This document shows positions 2,606-25,475 of a stretch of DNA of 64,000 nucleotides, one piece after another. The DNA comes from Listeria seeligeri serovar 1/2b str. SLCC3954 (GTDB lineage: Bacteria > Bacillota > Bacilli > Lactobacillales > Listeriaceae): NCBI RefSeq assembly GCF_000027145.1, contig NC_013891.1, positions 2,108,001 through 2,172,000 on the forward strand, in the 5' to 3' direction. Position 1 is the first letter of the stretch. The number at the start of each line of letters is the position of its first letter. The translations under genes and the position numbers were made by a program. The notes below the pieces were generated by a model that had not been told where the DNA came from, did not search any database, and worked only from the letters and a program-made list of their open reading frames with translations.

Positions 2606-3583
2606 TTATTTATTGACCAAGTTCACTTGTTGGTTATTGATAAGTGGATAAACAACTAGTTCCTTGCTTTCCAAGTCTTCTTGGTGCATATCCACACCAG
2701 TAATTTGGCTATTTTCATAAGTTTTATAGTAATAAATTCCTTTATCCATATTGCAGCAAGATGAATAAATCGTATGCTCGTATTTTTCTCCACCAACATC
2801 ACAAAGACCTTTTTGTTGTTCCACAGATCCTAAAATATGGAAAAATTGACCGATACTTTCTGATTCAGAATTTCCGGAGACCGAATTTAATTTAGTGAAG
2901 GTAGCTTTAACAAAACGCGACATAGATGATAAATCGCCTGGTAGACCGATTCCGCCCATGCCACGGCTATAAGCATCCAAATCAAGGTCTTTTGAAAAAT
3001 TATTTTCTGGAGTTTTACTGGACAACACGCGATAATTATTTAAATTAAACAGCTGATAATTAAATGGTGGATTATTCGTTAAAACACCAACTGGATTATC
3101 ATATATGTGAAGACCATCTTTCAGAGATTCAATTACGATTGATTCTGTTTGATCTGCCATCAACCAATGTAGTGGAGAAAGTGGCAGGTTATCACTAAAA
3201 TTAATGTTTACAAGGTTGATTTTTTCAAGTAATACTCTTGCTTCTTTTACGGTAGCGCATTGCCCAAGAATCCACGGGATAAATTCAAATGGTGTCACAT
3301 TATCTTTATCTTCCGCAAGTTCTTTATAATCTGCATTTCCGGAGAAGTTAAGCCCTGCAATGCTAAGGCCTTTTTCATTTGTAGCATCGTAATACAAAGG
3401 ATAGTTTTCCATGACCGCTGCAATACCAATTAGCGCATAATGTTGAGGCATATCCTCTACCTTACGAAAATGGAACGGGTAATTTTTCGGCGTGACAACG
3501 ACAACCTCTTTATAAGAAAGTTCATAATCGAAATTCCTTCCAAAATAGTGATCTCTAGTTGTATAAGTTATTGACGTACACAT
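2606..3583 (-). CDS. bsh: bile salt hydrolase (choloylglycine hydrolase)
   Basis: 325 residues, the usual size for the Ntn-hydrolase choloylglycine family. The protein starts Met-Cys-Thr-Ser; removal of Met exposes Cys2 as catalytic nucleophile. Other expected residues are present: Arg in 'FGRNFDYE', Asn in 'GLNFSGNADY', 'LTNNPPFNYQ' and Arg in 'SSMSRFVKA'. It cleaves glycine or taurine from conjugated bile salts and is a known gut-persistence factor of L. monocytogenes. The start has a strong GAGGAGGG site. Monocistronic: convergent or terminated on both sides, with its own promoter region. Confidence 0.95.
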   Translation of the reverse strand: MCTSITYTTRDHYFGRNFDYELSYKEVVVVTPKNYPFHFRKVEDMPQHYALIGIAAVMENYPLYYDATNEKGLSIAGLNFSGNADYKELAEDKDNVTPFEFIPWILGQCATVKEARVLLEKINLVNINFSDNLPLSPLHWLMADQTESIVIESLKDGLHIYDNPVGVLTNNPPFNYQLFNLNNYRVLSSKTPENNFSKDLDLDAYSRGMGGIGLPGDLSSMSRFVKATFTKLNSVSGNSESESIGQFFHILGSVEQQKGLCDVGGEKYEHTIYSSCCNMDKGIYYYKTYENSQITGVDMHQEDLESKELVVYPLINNQQVNLVNK

Positions 3584-3624
3584 TCAAAATCCCTCCTCTA
3601 ATTTTTCACCCTACATTAGTAACA

Positions 3625-3684
3625 GTACCCTTGAGATTTTTTCGCAAAACCTTTTCTGTGGTTTTTTTCACAAAAATTATACCA
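3625..3684 (-). promoter_or_regulatory. bsh promoter region: sigma-B-like site and extended -10
   Basis: Two candidate promoters read toward bsh. The nearer has GTTT at 3650-3647 and GGGTAC at 3630-3625 with a 16-nt spacer, close to the sigma-B consensus GTTT/GGGWAW. The farther has a perfect extended -10, TGG-TATAAT, at 3684-3676 with no good -35. Sigma-B and PrfA control of bsh is known from L. monocytogenes. I find only a degenerate PrfA-box-like stretch near 3700, with no clean palindrome. Confidence 0.6.
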
Positions 3685-3730
3685 AATTGCTAAATTTTAC
3701 AGATAATTAAACCTCCAATTTACTACAAAA

Positions 3731-3764
3731 AAAGAGACCTTTGAAATTTCCCAAAGGTCTCTTT
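3731..3764 (-). terminator. groESL terminator
   Basis: Perfect 13-bp inverted repeat (AAAGAGACCTTTG and its complement, 8-nt loop) followed on the minus strand by a run of seven T. It lies 42 bp after the groEL stop. Confidence 0.92.
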
Positions 3765-3805
3765 CCTTATTTTAAATACAGAGCTAATTTTAGTAAGTGT
3801 TAACC

Positions 3806-5461
<1,656 letters not shown>

Positions 5462-16811: not shown

Positions 16812-17693
16812 CTAATTGGTCATCCATTTTGGTGTTAATTTCCGAAAATTATCGTGGCTACTTACTGTCTTTATCGCGTAAGACTCTAACTTTTCTAGAT
16901 TGCGCGTATCATTTTCACTTGCCCAGCTTAGAGCAAAAACAATATGCATTGCTGTATAAAGTGCATAAAGTTTCCAAAAATCAGTAATATCTTCTTTTCC
17001 AATATAGCCCAAAATATTCCCTTTCGCAAAAGCGATACTGCTGTTTGTTGTAAAAAAACCAATTTTAGCTAAATCAAATAATGGATCACCAAACTCCAAA
17101 CGGTTAAAATCAATTATTCCAGAAAATTGATGATTCTTTAAAATGATATTTGCTGGATGAAAATCACCTTGTTGTAGTCGAATCTCTCTTCCCTTCATTA
17201 AATCTAAATTATTTTCAATAAAAGACTCTAGTTCTTGAAGAAATACTACTTCTATATTTGATTTTTTTAACTTACTTAATTTACGATAATATTTTTCTTT
17301 TTGTAAATCATACCAATTTAATTCTGTCGCATTTATATCCATTTTATGTATTTTCCGCAAAACTGCTCCTGCTGAAACTCCTGCTTGGAGCTGTTCTGCT
17401 TTAGACAAATGTGTCATTCCGCTCTCAGCATCTTCGCCTAACACATAATCCATCACCATATATCCTTTTCCTTGAAGAAGACCAAAATCCAACGCTCGTG
17501 GTACTTTAGGAGCTAATGGACTTAATTTTTGGATTGCTTCAAATTCCACTTTTCGCTCTTCCCACATATTTTCCGGGAAAACACGAACTAGATAGCTATT
17601 GTCTACTTGGTATTTTTGATCTATTGAAAAACCTTTCTTTATTTCTTTTATCACTTTTGCATTTTTTAACATTTCAATAGCTCTTAAATCCAA
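16812..17693 (-). CDS. aminoglycoside phosphotransferase-family (APH) kinase-like protein
   Basis: 293 residues from TTG at 17693, which has GAAGG 7 nt upstream; an ATG at 17738 lacks a binding site. Kinase-fold motifs: catalytic loop 'QQGDFHPANIIL' (Asp and Asn of Brenner's motif) and metal-binding 'IIDFNRLEFGDPLFDLAKIG'. The family phosphorylates small alcohols such as aminoglycosides, choline or macrolides; the substrate cannot be told here. Paired in an operon with a GyrI-like ligand-binding protein. A resistance role is possible but unproven. Confidence 0.83.
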   Translation of the reverse strand: MDLRAIEMLKNAKVIKEIKKGFSIDQKYQVDNSYLVRVFPENMWEERKVEFEAIQKLSPLAPKVPRALDFGLLQGKGYMVMDYVLGEDAESGMTHLSKAEQLQAGVSAGAVLRKIHKMDINATELNWYDLQKEKYYRKLSKLKKSNIEVVFLQELESFIENNLDLMKGREIRLQQGDFHPANIILKNHQFSGIIDFNRLEFGDPLFDLAKIGFFTTNSSIAFAKGNILGYIGKEDITDFWKLYALYTAMHIVFALSWASENDTRNLEKLESYAIKTVSSHDNFRKLTPKWMTN

Positions 17694-17778
17694 ATTCCCA
17701 CCTTCTTTCAAGTAAATTAATTTCTCTCTATTATACAAGAAACCACTTACCTTTAACTAGCTAAATCCGCATAAATTA

Positions 17779-17808
17779 TTGACAAAAGAAAGCTTTCAAT
17801 ATTATAAT
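17779..17808 (+). promoter_or_regulatory. promoter of tRNA-Leu
   Basis: TTGACA, 18-nt spacer, TATAAT: perfect hexamers. It ends 20 bp before the tRNA. Confidence 0.85.
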
Positions 17809-17827
17809 TAATTTTGCTAATGTACAC

Positions 17828-17911
<84 letters not shown>

Positions 17912-17919
17912 TAGAACGC

Positions 17920-17960
17920 AAGGAATCCAAGGTTATTTTCTAACCTTGGATTCCTTTTTT
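17920..17960 (+). terminator. terminator of tRNA-Leu
   Basis: Perfect 16-bp stem (AAGGAATCCAAGGTTA and complement, 5-nt loop) ending in seven T on the plus strand. Confidence 0.95.
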
Positions 17961-17966
17961 TACTGC

Positions 17967-19679
17967 TCAATTATTTCTTCTATACATTAATGCTATTCCA
18001 GCTGTAGCCAATAAAGCTCCACCAAATAGTACATTTTTGTTTGTGCTATCACCAGTTTGTGGTAAATTGCCTTTTTTTGTTTTAGCATTTTTATCTACTT
18101 CTTTAATTACTATTCCATCAGTGCTATTGCCATCAGTACCGCTTGGTGTTGGCGTCACTTTTATCTTGGTATCGCTAAACGTTACATTAACAGGACCTTG
18201 TGGATTAAATGGTATCGTGACGCGCATTTCTTTGTTTGATTTTTCATAGCCTTCTGGTGCGTCTGTTTCTTTTACAATGTAGGTTCCTGGTGGCAAATTA
18301 CTCGCGAGCGCATAGCCTTTTGCATTAGATGTTACTTTCTTAATGACTTTTCCATTTTCCGTTTCTACTGTAAAAATCGCATTTTCGAGGCCTTTTTTGG
18401 TCGCTCCATCTTGTTTAAAAATCATGATGGCACCCATTTTTTCTATATTTTGGAAAGTTAATTTTACTGGATCGGTATTGCCGTAAACAATTGTAAAGCT
18501 CTTTGGTCTAGGATTTTTTTGATAGCCTATTGGAGCAGTTATTTCGGTTGCTGTATATTTTCCAGGTGGCAATCCTTCTGCAGTTCCCAAACCATTTTCT
18601 GCGGTAGTTACTTTTGCGACTTCGGTTCCTGTACTGTCTTTAATAGAATAAACAGCATCACTTAGCGCTTTTTGACCAGAAAGTTTTTGAATTTCTACTT
18701 TTCCATTTGTCGTAAGTCCAGCATCAACATCAAAGTTTTCTGTTCTAAGTGTAGGTACATTAACATTAGTAAGACCGGTTGAATCCACTTTGGAATTGAT
18801 TTCTGGGTTATTTCCTTGATTTGCTTTAGAGAAAATATAATCATTATTTGGTAATGTGAATTTAACTTGGTAATCGCCTGGCAAAACATCGGTAAATAAA
18901 TAGGAGCCAATGTCATTTGTCACCGTGCTCTTTGTTACGGTTCCATTGTCATCTATTAAATCTACTTTTACATTTGGAGCTGGCTCTTCATTGTCTTGTT
19001 GAATTCCATCACCATTAATATCATACCAAGCTAAATCGCCAATTTTTGCTCCTTCAATATTAATATATAGTTCTACATCATCTAAAAAGTTCCCATTGGT
19101 GAGTGAACCACTTGCTGTTGAAATAGGATTAAAGGTCAATCTGGTAATCGTTTGACCAGGTGGAACAACATAATTCCCTTCATAATCTCCCCAAGCAGTA
19201 TTATCATCTGACACCCGTGAAACCTCCACTTGTGTTTCAGGAGAACCAATAAGTAAGTCAGCCACATCCATGCCACTCCGACCACGGTGAGCAAATTTCC
19301 AAGTTAGGACAGTCCCGGGAATAGTACGAATATCTTGATAAACTGGGCCAATTCCATCTGAATTAAGTTCAATAAAATTAGTGCCTGAAAAAGGTGGTAC
19401 ATTATAGCCATTTCCTGCTTGCCAAACTTCTATTTTACCCGAGGGATTCTCAGTTCCCCATGCGGCAACACCAGCTTGGTCAACCATCCAAACATTGGGT
19501 GATCCTGCATTATGTCCATAATTCTCGATATCTACATCTTCAAAATCACTATTTTTGATAGCCCATTTAAGTTGCCAACCATTCGCAGATACTGGTGACG
19601 CCTGCGCTTTCTCTGTGAAACCTCCGAAAATAAGTAGTATTAATACAACTATTAAACTAGCTACTATTTTTTTCTGCAT
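17967..19679 (-). CDS. LPXTG cell-wall-anchored protein with SdrD-B-like and Cna-B-like domains
   Basis: 570 residues. Signal peptide to about residue 29 (Ala-Gln-Ala before the cut), an N-terminal jelly-roll-like domain (about 30-200), an SdrD B-type repeat with 'WYDINGDGIQQDNEEPAPNV' near 215, then two Cna-B/SpaA-like domains that begin 'VEIQKLSGQK' and 'GAIMIFKQDG' and each contain 'PPGKYTATE' or 'PPGTYIVKE'; their Lys and Glu can form isopeptide bonds. The C-terminus has Leu-Pro-Gln-Thr-Gly (about 539-543), a hydrophobic segment and Arg-Arg: a sortase A substrate. The ATG at 19679 has AGGGAG 8 nt upstream. Matches what I know as lmo2085 in EGD-e; likely an adhesin. Confidence 0.93.
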   Translation of the reverse strand: MQKKIVASLIVVLILLIFGGFTEKAQASPVSANGWQLKWAIKNSDFEDVDIENYGHNAGSPNVWMVDQAGVAAWGTENPSGKIEVWQAGNGYNVPPFSGTNFIELNSDGIGPVYQDIRTIPGTVLTWKFAHRGRSGMDVADLLIGSPETQVEVSRVSDDNTAWGDYEGNYVVPPGQTITRLTFNPISTASGSLTNGNFLDDVELYINIEGAKIGDLAWYDINGDGIQQDNEEPAPNVKVDLIDDNGTVTKSTVTNDIGSYLFTDVLPGDYQVKFTLPNNDYIFSKANQGNNPEINSKVDSTGLTNVNVPTLRTENFDVDAGLTTNGKVEIQKLSGQKALSDAVYSIKDSTGTEVAKVTTAENGLGTAEGLPPGKYTATEITAPIGYQKNPRPKSFTIVYGNTDPVKLTFQNIEKMGAIMIFKQDGATKKGLENAIFTVETENGKVIKKVTSNAKGYALASNLPPGTYIVKETDAPEGYEKSNKEMRVTIPFNPQGPVNVTFSDTKIKVTPTPSGTDGNSTDGIVIKEVDKNAKTKKGNLPQTGDSTNKNVLFGGALLATAGIALMYRRNN

Positions 19680-19716
19680 GCTCTCAACTCCCTTTCGCGA
19701 ATCCCAACAAGTTACT

Positions 19717-19742
19717 TTACCCAAATAAAGACATCAAAAAAC
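19717..19742 (-). promoter_or_regulatory. sigma-B-type promoter of the LPXTG gene
   Basis: GTTT at 19742-19739, 16-nt spacer, GGGTAA at 19722-19717; both elements are exact consensus. It lies 38 bp before the ATG and its -35 is inside the preceding terminator. The L. monocytogenes counterpart lmo2085 is reported in the sigma-B regulon. Confidence 0.72.
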
Positions 19743-19769
19743 ACCCGCGCTAAAATAAACGCAGGTGTT
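19740..19769 (-). terminator. terminator of the RRNPP-like regulator gene
   Basis: 10-bp stem with one T-G pair (AACACCTGCG...CGCGGGTGTT), then six T on the minus strand. The T-tract overlaps the -35 of the next promoter. Confidence 0.82.
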
Positions 19770-19777
19770 AGCATTGA

Positions 19778-21058
19778 TTATGACAAAATATCATAAGCCA
19801 TTTTATACTTCGTTGAATTTGCAAAGTGTTTGCTGGCATGTTTTTTTACACGATTAATTAAAGCTGGGTCATTCGAATTGTTAATTTTTTTGAGTAACTG
19901 TAACATTTTTTCCTCATAACTTGTTTGCTGATTCTGATGATAAAATTGTAACGTTTCTGCGTATTCAATAAAAAAGTCAAGCTCCATCACATGCTCTTCA
20001 ACATCATTCATAATGTTAATTAATTCATTTACTTCAGAAATAAATCCTTGTTCTGCAAAAATAACCATCAGTTCCGTTATAACTAAAAAATCATTGTTGT
20101 TAAACTCAATATTTAACGCTTTATGAGCCACTATTTCATTATATAAAGTCATTAATTTTTCATTAAAAGCTACCTCATTACCTTCTAATTGCTGAATTTC
20201 TGCAAGCTTGAATTGAATTAAGAAATAATAAATAGGTGCTGCTTTTGGGTATTCCGAGAAATAAATCATTGCTTGTTCAAATTTATTCTTAGCTTCTTTC
20301 ATAAAACCGATTTGGAAATAAATGTATCCATAAAAATAGAGAACTGAGATGATTCGCTCTTGTTTTCCACTTTCGAAGGTTTGAATTAAATCGGCTGCCC
20401 TCGCTACATATTTTAAAGCAGGTTCATATTTACTTTCACAAATATAATAAGTACAAATATAACTATTAAAAACTACCTGAAAATCTGGTTTAGTTGTTAA
20501 TTCAATGCTTTTTTTCCAATACTTTCTAGAAAGGCTGTAATTACAAGTAGCATGTGCATTTTTGACTCCCTGACAATAATAGTAGAAACTTTGCAAATAG
20601 GTTGGAAAAGTTTTTGCAGAATGTTTTGCTACGTTATTGAGATGTTTTCTTTCTATCTCTTCTGCTTTGGAAAATTTCCATGTTTTATAATATAATCCAG
20701 CTTGCAGACAATAAAATCCTAGTTCAATGGCTGGCAATTCATAGCGTAAATCGACATTTTCGGCGATGTTGTTTAATTTTTGTTCTGCTTCCATCGTATT
20801 GGAAAAGACAAGTGCTTCAAATATACTATTAAGTTCCTGTAAAATACTGAAATCAGTTTTTTCTTCCGCTACTAATAAAACTTCCTCAGGTATTTCAAGT
20901 CGATTAGCAATATGAATTAAAGTTTCAATTGAAGCGGTTTTTACGCCATTTTCAATGTTTGCTAAATAAGGAATCGAAATAATTCCCTGAGATACTTCTT
21001 TTAGTGTTTGTTGCTTTTCTTTACGGATATTTTTAATTCGGATGCCGATTAAACTCAA
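19778..21058 (-). CDS. HTH + TPR-type (RRNPP/NprR-like) transcriptional regulator
   Basis: 426 residues from TTG at 21058 (GGTGGTGG just upstream); an ATG at 21100 would add 14 residues but lacks a binding site. Residues 1-60 form an HTH of the Xre type ('IGIRIKNIRKEKQQTLKEVS'). The rest is helical repeat sequence rich in Tyr/Phe/Leu (for example 'FYYYCQGVKNAHATCNYSLS'), as in TPR regulators of the Rgg/PlcR/PrgX/NprR group that bind exported peptide pheromones. Size fits NprR best. It is co-directional with a lipoprotein gene upstream and the LPXTG gene downstream; no terminator separates it from the lipoprotein gene. Peptide sensing is inferred. Confidence 0.8.
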   Translation of the reverse strand: MSLIGIRIKNIRKEKQQTLKEVSQGIISIPYLANIENGVKTASIETLIHIANRLEIPEEVLLVAEEKTDFSILQELNSIFEALVFSNTMEAEQKLNNIAENVDLRYELPAIELGFYCLQAGLYYKTWKFSKAEEIERKHLNNVAKHSAKTFPTYLQSFYYYCQGVKNAHATCNYSLSRKYWKKSIELTTKPDFQVVFNSYICTYYICESKYEPALKYVARAADLIQTFESGKQERIISVLYFYGYIYFQIGFMKEAKNKFEQAMIYFSEYPKAAPIYYFLIQFKLAEIQQLEGNEVAFNEKLMTLYNEIVAHKALNIEFNNNDFLVITELMVIFAEQGFISEVNELINIMNDVEEHVMELDFFIEYAETLQFYHQNQQTSYEEKMLQLLKKINNSNDPALINRVKKHASKHFANSTKYKMAYDILS

Positions 21059-21130
21059 GTTGTCCACCACCAATACTATTTTCCCTTTAATTATAACCAT
21101 TTATTGGTGGAAAACAAGGCATTTATTACT

Positions 21131-22138
21131 TTAATTTAAGGCTGGAAAATCCGCATATTCTGATACTAAGTTTTTATAACTGTGTAATAGTTTTTCTGGT
21201 GTTCCTGTTGTTTTTTCTAAAACAGTATTATTATCTAATACATCATCTGTTATGGCTTCCTTACTCTCAACACGTTCTATGATTGATTTGCCATCTATTT
21301 TCACTTGGTTTGCCTTTGCTTTTAATGTTCTAATATCTGCTTCAGAAAAACCCGATTTAGCAACTTTCCCTTTATCTTTAGTAGCAGTTTCAAGCTCTAT
21401 ATAAGTGTTCACAAGTTTGTCATATTTCAGTGAATAAGCACAGGTATCCAGTTTCAAAATATTCACTGCCTGCATATGTTGATTTTGCAATTCTACATTA
21501 ACTGCTTCAGCGTCCTTGATAAATTGAATTAAACTATAGGTTACTGTGTCCCCGTTGTTTTTTAATTCTTCCATTTTAGCCAAATGTTGTTCTTCCATAA
21601 GTTTGTCAACTTCCTTATTGAAGCTAGCGATATCCGAATTGGTTTTTTTAGTTGTTTTCAGCAAAGAATCATGTAATTTCTTGGCTTTTCGGAAATCATC
21701 TTTTGTATATTCTTTTGTTTCATAGTAATCGGCCATTTCTTCCAGAATTTCTATTTCGCCTTTAACTTCTGGAATTAAACTCTGGGCTGTTTTTTTAAGT
21801 GGTAGAGTGGCTTTTTTCTGTAACATTTCTTTTAAATCATTGATGCTTTGATGCGTTTGATCAACATTCGGGATAAATATTTCTTTTGCCGTATCGGGCG
21901 TTACATAGTTCAAATCAGCATCCGAATAGTTAGCAAAATAACTTTCCTTTGTTTTTAGAAACTCTCCTTTTAGATTATTGCTAAAATTAATATACATATA
22001 GTATTCTGCCAGTTCTTTTCCTGTATAAACACCTTGCACATCATCATTCTTATTGCTTTTTGATGTGCTAGAACACGCAGTTAGTACTAGTACGGACAAT
22101 ATGAGTAAACTAACAAACCTACATACCTTGTAAAACAT
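21131..22138 (-). CDS. DUF3829-like lipoprotein
   Basis: 335 residues from the ATG at 22138, which has AGAGGG 6 nt upstream. Short signal peptide ending Leu-Thr-Ala-Cys (lipidated Cys at residue 22). The mature part is mostly helical ('EIEILEEMADYYETKEYTKD', 'FRKAKKLHDSLLKTTKKTNS'), matching the DUF3829/YiiG pattern, function unknown. It precedes the RRNPP-like regulator in the same operon. The last residues of its signal peptide ('LSVLVLTA') have the length and hydrophobicity of pheromones cut from lipoprotein signals; see findings. Confidence 0.82.
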   Translation of the reverse strand: MFYKVCRFVSLLILSVLVLTACSSTSKSNKNDDVQGVYTGKELAEYYMYINFSNNLKGEFLKTKESYFANYSDADLNYVTPDTAKEIFIPNVDQTHQSINDLKEMLQKKATLPLKKTAQSLIPEVKGEIEILEEMADYYETKEYTKDDFRKAKKLHDSLLKTTKKTNSDIASFNKEVDKLMEEQHLAKMEELKNNGDTVTYSLIQFIKDAEAVNVELQNQHMQAVNILKLDTCAYSLKYDKLVNTYIELETATKDKGKVAKSGFSEADIRTLKAKANQVKIDGKSIIERVESKEAITDDVLDNNTVLEKTTGTPEKLLHSYKNLVSEYADFPALN

Positions 22139-22176
22139 AATTTCCCTCTTTCCAATTAATAATTGATGCAAATTTA

Positions 22177-22204
22177 AAATCCTTCATTCCCACATGAAGG
22201 ATTT
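22177..22204 (-). promoter_or_regulatory. leader hairpin upstream of the lipoprotein-regulator operon
   Basis: Perfect 11-bp inverted repeat (AAATCCTTCAT/ATGAAGGATTT, 6-nt loop) between the likely promoter and the lipoprotein start, followed on the minus strand by TAAATTTGC (TTTTAAATTTG counting the stem end). It looks like an attenuator or mRNA-stabilising hairpin. A possible -10 (TAAAAT) lies about 60 nt farther upstream. Confidence 0.5.
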
Positions 22205-22354
22205 ATATTTAGAAACAACCCACAGTCTCCCATTTTAACACTATAATTTCATAAAACTGAAAAAAGGATAAAACACACATTCCCGCCCTTTTTGTTTTTA
22301 TTTTAGTATGAATTTATCCAATGTTTCTGCTGGTTTTAACACTTTAATCACAGA

Positions 22355-22388
22355 AAAAAGCCCAGAAATCAAATTTTCCGGGCTTTTT
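22355..22388 (-). terminator. terminator of the tetR-MATE operon
   Basis: 14-bp stem with one mismatch (AAAAAGCCCGGAAA), 6-nt loop and T-tract on the minus strand directly after the MATE stop. Confidence 0.9.
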
Positions 22389-22389
22389 C

Positions 22390-23721
22390 CTATTTAAATA
22401 AAATATGTTTTTTCTTCATATAAATGACAATGGAAGCTGCTACAATCATTTCAGAAATTGGGATTGCTAGCCAAACACCTGTGATACCAATTATGGAAGG
22501 TAAAATTAACAAGAAAATAACCATGAAAATAATCTCCCGTGAAATGGTAATCCAGGTTGCCATTTTTACTTTGTCAGATGTTTGGAAGTAAGTCATCATC
22601 ACAAAGTTAAAACCCATAAATAAGTAGGCTGTATAGAAAAGTTTGATTCCGGAGCTTGCTAGATCTTTAATCTCAGGGGTGAAATTACCGAACATTGAGA
22701 CAAGTAAATTCGATGCGAACAGGCCAACTAGTAAGAAACCAACTCCGGTACAGAACGCCACTAGAATCGCGATTTTTAACGTTTCTAGTTCTTTTTCTCT
22801 TGCTTTTGCTCCTCTGTAGTAACTAATTAATGGTTGAATTGCTGAACCCATTCCGAGGAACAGCATCAAAATCACACTGTGCGTATAGTTTAATACTGAG
22901 AATGCAGCAACACCAGCAGTTCCAGCAATTGCAGCTAGTGAAATATTATAGCCGAATGTAAATACGGATACACCAACTTCCGCTAGAAAACTCGGAAGAC
23001 CGATTGAAAATGTCTTTTTAAAAAAAGCTTTATTCCAATTTAAGCGAACAAATTTTAATCGACTTGATTTTTTAAAGAAATGGGTAGTGAGAATTAGCAC
23101 TCCAACAATAATCGCAATCATTGTTGCAAGAGCAGAGCCAGTTACACCCCATTCAAAAATAAATAGGAAAAAATAATTTAAAATAACATTACAAATGGCT
23201 GTAACAACAAGCGCAATCATGGATAAATTCGGATCGCCATCATTTCTTACAAAGATACTTAAAATATTTTCTAAAGTAAGTGCAAATCCAAAAATAAGTA
23301 GAACATTCATATATTCGAGTACGTAACCAATCGTATCATCATTCGCACCTAAAAAATAAGCGAGCGGAACTTTAAAAATGAATGCAATAATCGCGATAAC
23401 AATTGTAATCGAGACAACAGCTAGAATCGCATTTGTAAAAATAGTTTGCGCTTTTTTAACATTTTTCTCCCCAATCGCAAATGAGAATTGGGTTGCTGCT
23501 CCAATACCAATCCAAATCGAAATAGCGGTAAAGATAGTAAAGACTGGTACTGCAATATTTATCCCAGCAAGCGCAGTGCCGCCGAGTTTATGTCCAACGA
23601 AAATTCCGTCAATAACGATATTTAATGACATTAATAACATCCCGACTAAGGAAGGTATTAAATATTTAAAATAAATCTTTTTTACTGAATCTGTTTCTAA
23701 AATTTCGATATTTTTTGCCAT
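22390..23721 (-). CDS. MATE family multidrug efflux transporter
   Basis: 443 residues, about 12 membrane helices in two halves. Starts 'ILETDSVKKIYFKYLIPSLV' and contains 'DGIFVGHKLGGTALAGINIA', the typical first MATE repeat. Such pumps use Na+ or H+ gradients to expel cationic drugs or dyes. It lies 14 bp after a TetR gene in the same direction, which probably represses both. Substrate not predictable. Confidence 0.93.
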   Translation of the reverse strand: MAKNIEILETDSVKKIYFKYLIPSLVGMLLMSLNIVIDGIFVGHKLGGTALAGINIAVPVFTIFTAISIWIGIGAATQFSFAIGEKNVKKAQTIFTNAILAVVSITIVIAIIAFIFKVPLAYFLGANDDTIGYVLEYMNVLLIFGFALTLENILSIFVRNDGDPNLSMIALVVTAICNVILNYFFLFIFEWGVTGSALATMIAIIVGVLILTTHFFKKSSRLKFVRLNWNKAFFKKTFSIGLPSFLAEVGVSVFTFGYNISLAAIAGTAGVAAFSVLNYTHSVILMLFLGMGSAIQPLISYYRGAKAREKELETLKIAILVAFCTGVGFLLVGLFASNLLVSMFGNFTPEIKDLASSGIKLFYTAYLFMGFNFVMMTYFQTSDKVKMATWITISREIIFMVIFLLILPSIIGITGVWLAIPISEMIVAASIVIYMKKKHILFK

Positions 23722-23735
23722 ATAGCACCTCTAAT

Positions 23736-24320
23736 TTAAGCTTTTAGCGTAATTCCTCTCCAGAAAATTTGCCATAAAGCTGTGATTTTCTTTTGTGTTC
23801 TTTGTGGTTCATTTACATAAACAATCTCGACAATAACTGCATCAAGAATGCCCATGTATGCTTCTTTCATCGTTTCAACATCTTGTTCTGGAATTAGTTT
23901 TTGCTCCATCCAGCTACTGAATAATTCAGTGAAGTCTTGCTCCATTTGACTCACATTATCGCTAATTTCCGCTTGGACAATATCGTATAAATGTTTAGGC
24001 GGATAAAAGCCATATCGTAACCAAAACTGAAATGCTGCATCGGTATCGTATAAGTTTTTCACCCCAAAAAGCAAACTAGCTAGTACTAAATCTGGTCTAG
24101 ATAAGTCACTATTCTGAAGATGCGCCCGGTAGTAGTCGATTTCTGTTGACTTTGCATCCTTCATAATCGATAAAAATAAATCATCTTTATCTTTAAAATG
24201 AGAATAAATGGATTGCTTCTTTAAACCTACAACTCCCGCAATATCCGCGAGTGATGTTCCTTCAAATCCATTGGTTGCAAAAAGTTCTAAAGCAGCTTGT
24301 TTAATTTCTTCTTTTCTCAT
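23736..24320 (-). CDS. TetR family repressor of the MATE transporter
   Basis: 194 residues from the ATG at 24320 (AAAGGAG 7 nt upstream); in-frame codons to 24395 are not supported by a binding site. N-terminal HTH 'GTSLADIAGVVGLKKQSIYS' (about 25-45), followed by a helical ligand domain. Leads the operon; a near-palindromic operator lies 27 bp upstream of its start, so autorepression is likely. Confidence 0.92.
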   Translation of the reverse strand: MRKEEIKQAALELFATNGFEGTSLADIAGVVGLKKQSIYSHFKDKDDLFLSIMKDAKSTEIDYYRAHLQNSDLSRPDLVLASLLFGVKNLYDTDAAFQFWLRYGFYPPKHLYDIVQAEISDNVSQMEQDFTELFSSWMEQKLIPEQDVETMKEAYMGILDAVIVEIVYVNEPQRTQKKITALWQIFWRGITLKA

Positions 24321-24346
24321 TTCCACACTCCTTTCGCATAAAACTG

Positions 24347-24358
24347 ACGACCGTTCGT
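24347..24358 (-). promoter_or_regulatory. candidate TetR operator
   Basis: ACGACCGTTCGT, matching its reverse complement at 10 of 12 positions, placed just downstream of the predicted -10 of tetR. Binding is inferred. Confidence 0.6.
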
Positions 24359-24362
24359 AAGT

Positions 24363-24392
24363 TATCTTCTCACGAAAAAAAATGATTGTCAA
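24363..24392 (-). promoter_or_regulatory. tetR-MATE promoter
   Basis: TTGACA at 24392-24387 with an AAGATA -10 after 18 nt. The -35 sits next to the T-tract of the esterase terminator, and the operator lies just past the -10. Confidence 0.55.
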
Positions 24393-24395
24393 CAA

Positions 24396-24427
24396 AAAAA
24401 TCCACCCCGATAAAAGAGTGGATTTTT
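24396..24427 (-). terminator. terminator of the esterase gene
   Basis: 10-bp stem (AAAAATCCAC/GTGGATTTTT), 12-nt loop, then T-run on the minus strand just after the stop at 24432. Confidence 0.85.
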
Positions 24428-24431
24428 CTAT

Positions 24432-25475
24432 TTATTTTTCTTCTAAAAACTCACTGATTAATTCGTATGTTTCATCAGTTGCTTCGGAGCTTGTTGTCAT
24501 ATAACCATGTGGTACTTTTTCAAAACGTTTTGCGAATACTTCAACGCCGGCATTTTTTAATTTTTCAGCGTATGCTTCCCCTTGATCTCTTAGTGGATCA
24601 AATTCAGCTGTTGCTAAGAATGTTTTTGGAAGTCCTGCTAAATCTTTGCTACGAATAGGCGCAACAAGTGGATCATATTTACGATCAGTGGCGTTTGAAA
24701 TATATAGTTTAAAGAATTTATCTAATGATTCTTTTGTTAATACATAACCTTCTGCAAATTCATCCATGGACGGATAAAGGACAGATGCGTCTCGGCTGAA
24801 AATATCTGTGGTTGGATAAAGCAAGATTTGTGCGGTGATGCTTGGTGCACCTTTTGCTTTAGCGATTTGTGTCACTACGGTTGCCAAGTTTGCTCCAACA
24901 CTATCTCCTGCAACAATGATATCTGCGGATTTAGCACGCAAGCTTGTACGATGGCTTTGAACCCAAAGTAGCGCTGCATAAGCATCTTCTACTGCTGCCG
25001 GGAATGGATTTTCCGGAGCTAAACGATAATCAACCGTAACTACACGTGCGCCAGTTGTTTGTACTAGTTTACGAGCAACAGCATCATGCGTTTGTAGCCC
25101 ACCTAATACAAATCCACCGCCGTGATAATAAACAATGATTTCGAATGGCCCATCTTCTTTTGGAGTGTAAATCCGAATTGGGATTTTCCCGCCTGGTCCA
25201 TCAATTTTTTTGTTTTCAACGTCGCCAATTTCGATATCTTTAGCAGATGGCAAGGCTTTTGTTGCAAGTCTCATATATTTATATCGTGAGTCTACATCAG
25301 ATAATGGTGAAGTATTTTTCACGAATTCTTGTGAGGCTTCATCTAAATTCTCCAGTACCTCTGGATTATATTCTTTTCTTCCAACCGCTTTTTTGTAAAT
25401 AAAGAACACGATTAATAATGGAAGCAGAATTATTCCAGCAAAACTAATAGCAACCCATTTTATTGTATTTTTCAC
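24432..25475 (-). CDS. membrane-anchored HSL-family esterase/lipase
   Basis: 347 residues. N-terminal membrane segment (about 7-25), then an alpha/beta hydrolase of the hormone-sensitive lipase family: oxyanion motif 'YYHGGGFVLGG', nucleophile 'GDSVGANLA', acid in 'AEFDPLRDQGE' and His in 'PHGYM'. Carboxylester hydrolase, substrate unknown. Start is a GTG with AAGGAG 10 nt upstream. Monogenic between two regulatory regions. Confidence 0.9.
   Translation of the reverse strand: MKNTIKWVAISFAGIILLPLLIVFFIYKKAVGRKEYNPEVLENLDEASQEFVKNTSPLSDVDSRYKYMRLATKALPSAKDIEIGDVENKKIDGPGGKIPIRIYTPKEDGPFEIIVYYHGGGFVLGGLQTHDAVARKLVQTTGARVVTVDYRLAPENPFPAAVEDAYAALLWVQSHRTSLRAKSADIIVAGDSVGANLATVVTQIAKAKGAPSITAQILLYPTTDIFSRDASVLYPSMDEFAEGYVLTKESLDKFFKLYISNATDRKYDPLVAPIRSKDLAGLPKTFLATAEFDPLRDQGEAYAEKLKNAGVEVFAKRFEKVPHGYMTTSSEATDETYELISEFLEEK

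Follow-up and report, generated by a model that had tools for sequence, protein, structure and literature searches.

A regulator gene of peptide-receptor type standing beside a lipoprotein gene raises the question of whether the regulator reads a peptide cut from the lipoprotein signal, or answers to another ligand with the lipoprotein as one of its outputs. Such an arrangement occurs in Listeria seeligeri serovar 1/2b str. SLCC3954 (genome G000, a single contig of 2.80 Mb), within the 64,000-nt stretch analysed here, hereafter the window (NC_013891.1, positions 2,108,001 to 2,172,000). Open reading frames (ORFs) and Pfam matches confirmed that a DUF3829 lipoprotein, a regulator with a helix-turn-helix (HTH) domain and tetratricopeptide repeats (TPRs), and an LPXTG-type surface protein are encoded consecutively on the minus strand. 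The original prediction saw in this row a peptide-sensing circuit, with the tail of the lipoprotein signal peptide as pheromone and the surface protein as target. Our comparison across Listeria favours a different reading, to which we assign a probability of about 0.5: the NprR-like regulator would control a conserved promoter, P1, whose cargo differs between lineages. The features, in window positions and in the order of transcription, are as follows.

22232..22267, minus: predicted promoter P1, CCTTTTT-N20-TGnTAAAAT, ahead of the lipoprotein gene
21131..22138, minus: DUF3829 lipoprotein, 335 aa (PF12889, expectation value (E) 2.5e-32; lipobox LTA-C)
21087..21117, minus: P2, putative own promoter of the regulator, TTGTTT-N16-TATAATTAA
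19778..21058, minus: HTH-TPR regulator, 426 aa, predicted Rap/NprR-like fold; counterpart of lmo2086
19740..19769, minus: intrinsic terminator 3' of the regulator, from the terminator scan
19717..19742, minus: sigma-B-like promoter of the surface protein
17967..19679, minus: LPQTG surface protein, 570 aa (SdrD_B, SpaA and Gram_pos_anchor; C-terminal LPQTG); counterpart of lmo2085

The regulator and the predicted promoters beside it

P1 combines an extended -10 element with a T-rich box directly upstream of the -35 position. Its spacing was identical in all 13 Listeria genomes that carry a full-length regulator, out of 25 compared, and the 11 gaps that hold no lipoprotein gene carry it at the equivalent position. 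A genus-wide search with the pattern retrieved these 13 genomes and none of the 12 without a full-length regulator, and the reversed pattern gave one match in each of two of the 25 genomes. The site was single in 12 of the 13; genome G005 carries one more P1-like site (L101, G005:C1:34191-34226), probably a chance occurrence, and the sole listed ORF of at least 150 codons within 3 kb precedes it. The -10 part of P2, TATAATTAA, was likewise present in all 13, preceded in 12 by a -35 element TTGT(A/T)T and in G013 by TTGCCA. Carriers of the regulator together with P1 and P2 include L. marthii and L. cossartiae, which like L. seeligeri are of low pathogenicity. A simple consensus promoter scan lists neither element, and its promoter count equals that of shuffled sequence (19 versus 17.8); both elements were recognised by conservation, from which we infer that they are promoters. 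Because P1 and P2 are the only non-coding elements that accompany the regulator in every case, the regulator may be taken to control P1, most likely by binding there and switching the cargo. An inverted repeat around P2, CCACCAATA/TATTGGTGG, was considered as an operator and rejected, being a single site in the window genome unseen in orthologues. Two short ORFs were also set aside: one of 38 aa 3' of P1, with a Shine-Dalgarno-like GGGA abutting its ATG, occurs in five of the 11 gaps and is not kept in the rest, and the window genome has one of 23 aa, with GGGCGGGA as its lead, that overlaps P1 and was unseen in other genomes.

The regulator starts at a TTG codon that aligns with the ATG of its 12 orthologues. 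Pfam detects HTH_19 (E 6.2e-10) and HTH_3 (E 2.7e-6), giving the N-terminal HTH typical of transcriptional RRNPPA receptors in a region where the structure model is poor; TPR matches were weak and fell under the Pfam cut-off, and the five to nine TPRs in a right-handed superhelix that mark these receptors appeared in the predicted structure. By structure comparison, residues 64-416 of this predicted TPR part aligned to residues 64-401 of NprR, and its predicted fold is that of Rap and NprR, in line with the original prediction. PrgX, Rgg and ComR were absent among the 50 VIA matches listed for the regulator, which is still compatible with a resemblance to them. Among sequences of the PDB the matches were mainly at the level of the HTH, including weak ones to the ComR HTH at E of about 0.6, and NprR was not among them. 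A small ligand bound within the TPR groove, and by analogy probably a peptide taken up from outside, would set the switch; no conserved small secreted ORF was seen upstream of the regulator in the gaps of the 13 genomes, whose ORF lists were read by eye without a signal-peptide predictor.

As the original prediction had stated, the interval from lipoprotein to regulator, which contains P2, shows nothing terminator-like in the terminator scan; the terminator at 19769-19740 stands between regulator and surface protein. The T-run of that terminator is overlapped by the sigma-B-like promoter of the surface protein (window 19717-19769). We consider the chances about even that the locus comprises three transcription units and not a single circuit: P1 with its cargo, the DNA-binding TPR regulator expressed from its own P2, to which read-through from P1 may add, and a surface protein gene of sigma-B type.

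Distribution and selection across Listeria

Among the 12 genomes without a full-length regulator, seven gave weak partial matches (E 1e-5 to 1e-3) and five none; a profile search matched residues 7-187 in one genome beyond the 13 (G014, E 1.3e-9). Comparison of the 11 kb around the regulator in all 13 genomes showed the esterase, TetR and MATE neighbours in every one, the esterase being cut by the stretch end in L061 and the MATE gene lying in two pieces in L066. The lipoprotein gene stands beside the regulator only in the window genome and in G013 (58% identity) and is missing in the other 11. A relative of it (32-34%) occurs elsewhere in seven of these, and none was found at E 0.001 in four; distant DUF3829-type lipoproteins in seven genomes (L023-L029) have nearby an ORF that resembles a class A sortase. 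Since the neighbouring lipoprotein is absent there, the ligand would have to come from another source in at least 11 genomes, and the lipoprotein would be cargo and not signal.

The regulator shares 57-66% identity with the window copy, against 91-96% for MATE and esterase. This interspecies divergence extends to the surface protein, the two together ranging from 57 to 77% beside the far more similar adjoining genes (window 16812-25475, L060-L072). The mean ratio of nonsynonymous to synonymous substitution (dN/dS, pairs with dS below 1) was 0.109 for the regulator (17 pairs), 0.025 for MATE (33), 0.026 for the esterase (63) and 0.157 for the surface protein (14), the MATE gene of L066 (12 of 13 used) and the esterase and surface protein genes of L061 (12 of 13 and seven of eight used) being left out. 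All 14 regulator pairs listed are between genomes without the lipoprotein. The regulator is under purifying selection in these genomes and, given the low ratio among them, is kept without the lipoprotein.

Outside Listeria, among 295 genomes of the order, the search returned two relatives of the regulator in G131 and one spread over two frames in G117 (L096, L097, L098); inspection of the ORF lists by eye showed no adjoining lipoprotein, and these stretches gave no P1-like site. Protein searches matched six plasmid and five phage records, full-length only in those of Listeria. The Listeria entries with this chromosomal regulator, filed as plasmid (NZ_CP030101.1, NZ_LR134401.1) or phage (OR846807.1, OR848137.1, OR848176.1, OR846815.1), may be chromosome pieces.

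The surface protein gene is present in eight of the 13 regulator genomes and absent in five; in G013 it lies in two frames with the junction near residue 171 (L061, about 2783-4481, minus strand). GTTT-N-GGGTA is the consensus of sigma-B promoters, and an element of this type precedes the gene in all eight genomes that have it and in none of the five that lack it, a count made without shuffle control. The available part of a sigma-B regulon study names lmo2085 among the cell-wall protein genes detected (PMC2248587), and in tables of work on sigB and sigBL mutants it stands beside sigB with values of -3.3/-3 and -3.2/-3.6 (PMC7690807). The gene could quite plausibly form its own sigma-B-type transcription unit, with odds near parity, and 'adhesin' is a label that its domains suggest.

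Lipoprotein or RNA downstream of P1

P1 is followed by the lipoprotein gene in two genomes and, in eight others, by a candidate structured RNA of about 340 nt that ends in a terminator and lies in the interval from fepA to the regulator (L062-L068 and L070; for example L068:6028-6369, minus strand). The alignment of the eight sequences, 351 columns running from directly past the P1 -10 element to the terminator helix that sets its 3' end, yielded 79 pairs with RNAalifold, 12 of them changed on both sides. Pairing cells amounted to 94.9% (0 of 500 shuffles as high), changes on both sides to 12 pairs (10 of 500) and 26 cells (0 of 500), and the covariation score to 0.201 versus 0.155 (0 of 500), with far lower scores in slid versions, all counted on a structure that was itself derived from this alignment of related sequences and is favoured by that origin; the number of further pair types was no higher than in shuffles (reached by 493 of 500). 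Single-sequence folding gave z-scores of -5.7 for L068 and -3.0 for L064, the two of the eight RNAs tested. With the L068 RNA as query, eight of the 25 genomes matched, only at this locus, two of them only at both ends. No Rfam family matched it, tRNA alone reaching gathering level and six sub-threshold matches being taken as chance. GGGA motifs lie in or near the predicted loops.

A covariance model of the 5' 150 nt of the RNA, searched against 18 sources, also matched L069 (E about 1e-5) and, at a weak level, the P1 leader of G013 running into the signal-peptide and lipobox codons of its lipoprotein gene (E 0.0057, or 0.0013 in a smaller search, both rough). L096 was returned at E 0.98, and the window, L071 and L072 gave no match. 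The gap of L071 (genome G005) shares a 20-nt exact match with the G013 lipoprotein gene, the longest in 60 shuffles being 13. These two matches suggest a common ancestry of gap sequence and lipoprotein gene, although it is not visible in scores over the whole gaps: local scores do not clearly exceed those of shuffles (reached by 34 to 448 of 500), chained scores do no better (at best four of 200 as high, most far more), and exact matches in the 21 other comparisons of gap with gene, out of 22, were no longer than shuffles yield. BLAST between gaps and gene returned recurrent positions, with interior matches down to E 6.8e-5 versus 0.004 for the best reversed control. Lipobox frames of the LVACG/IVACG kind, most without a suitable start codon, occur in six of the 11 gaps and were retained only as a hint of gene decay. 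The fuller proposal, which we regard as doubtful, is that the NprR-fold regulator and its private P1 constitute a conserved switch with an evolved output, either the DUF3829 lipoprotein or a structured RNA derived from the 5' end of its gene (leader and signal-peptide codons), possibly under an imported peptide from elsewhere; the lipoprotein would then be the earlier cargo. If true, a coding gene would have turned into a regulated RNA.

A plainer account would make this RNA a functionless, decaying lipoprotein pseudogene, with only read-through from P1 into the regulator of any consequence. Both the likeness of the RNA 5' half to the 5' end of the G013 gene and the exact match in L071 speak for such decay. 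Nevertheless, covariation and folding stability beyond shuffles, together with the retention of the terminator helix, point to selection on the structure of the RNA, and the other gap-gene comparisons give it little to build on, so that we hold this account unlikely. Rather more probable, though still less so than control of P1 by the regulator, is that P1 is regulator-independent, the regulator acting elsewhere or on itself and the neighbours being unrelated passengers. Several points weigh on this side: the regulator has a promoter-like P2 of its own, the content of the neighbourhood varies, and the tie between regulator and P1 is drawn from sequence. The 13 genomes probably represent one clade, so that co-occurrence with P1 does not count as 13 independent events. 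On the other hand, P1 is exactly conserved beside the regulator while much of the remaining gap is not, and the site is single in all but one of the genomes.

The pheromone circuit, in which the tail LSVLVLTA would be excised, taken up again and recognised by the regulator, which would control the operon and the surface protein, now appears very improbable. The genes adjoin on the same strand and nothing terminator-like separates the first two, the TPR fold is one that peptide receptors have, and PplA provides a published Listeria precedent; however, most regulators have no lipoprotein beside them, and it is on this distribution that the tail was rejected as the principal explanation. The proposed check of the signal tail went the same way: between G000 and G013, two genomes only and hence weak evidence, 4/8 tail residues were identical (three being the lipobox LTA), compared with 10/21 in the signal peptide and 181/314 in the mature part, so that the tail is no better conserved than the mature protein and nothing seems to mark it as a kept signal. 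As for the surface protein, a terminator and a sigma-B-like promoter stand ahead of it and five regulator genomes lack it, which argues against its being the target. A yardstick count of lipoprotein signals in the window (four candidates, all with hydrophobic octamers) was circular, since its rule itself required a hydrophobic core, and was not used. The original prediction knew of no description of the circuit, and none was seen among the listed titles and abstract starts on RRNPP, pheromones and lipoproteins in Listeria, PplA, PrgX, Rgg, lmo2085 and lmo2087.

Comparison with known systems

Control of P1 by the regulator would replace a poorly supported pheromone circuit by a testable one, consisting of the regulator (lmo2086 in EGD-e), a nearly unique adjoining promoter and an RNA candidate. 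PplA, the source of pPplA, and enterococcal cAD1 likewise involve a lipoprotein with a hydrophobic stretch at the end of its signal peptide, ahead of the Cys; here, in contrast, the tail is not kept together with the receptor, the lipoprotein being absent beside 11 of 13 regulators, and only half of the tail is identical between the two copies. The available part of the 2015 PplA paper shows no receptor for pPplA and names Lmo0833 as the closest TraA relative; the regulator may be a further candidate receptor.

Closest in architecture is NprR, a Bacillus quorum sensor, presumably of similar length, in which an HTH is followed by TPRs in the same order. It differs in that no conserved small exported propeptide ORF was seen upstream of the regulator in the ORF lists read by eye; as far as the available part of a published table goes, a propeptide was found for 40% of NprR proteins (PMC9765709). 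Rap phosphatases are also TPR peptide receptors, without the HTH that the regulator possesses (same source, same part).

In Listeria monocytogenes, lmo2085 and lmo2086 are the same genes in syntenic position. The order in NZ_LR134401 is alpha/beta hydrolase, fepR, fepA, regulator, SpaA-type surface protein, phosphotransferase and GyrI-like protein; it differs from the window in that its annotation places no lipoprotein in the 634-nt gap between fepA and the regulator. The one paper found to name lmo2086 describes it as a 423-aa DNA-binding protein adjoining fepRA (PMC4154695); on the comparison presented here it would be a so far uncharacterised regulator with a Rap/NprR-like fold.
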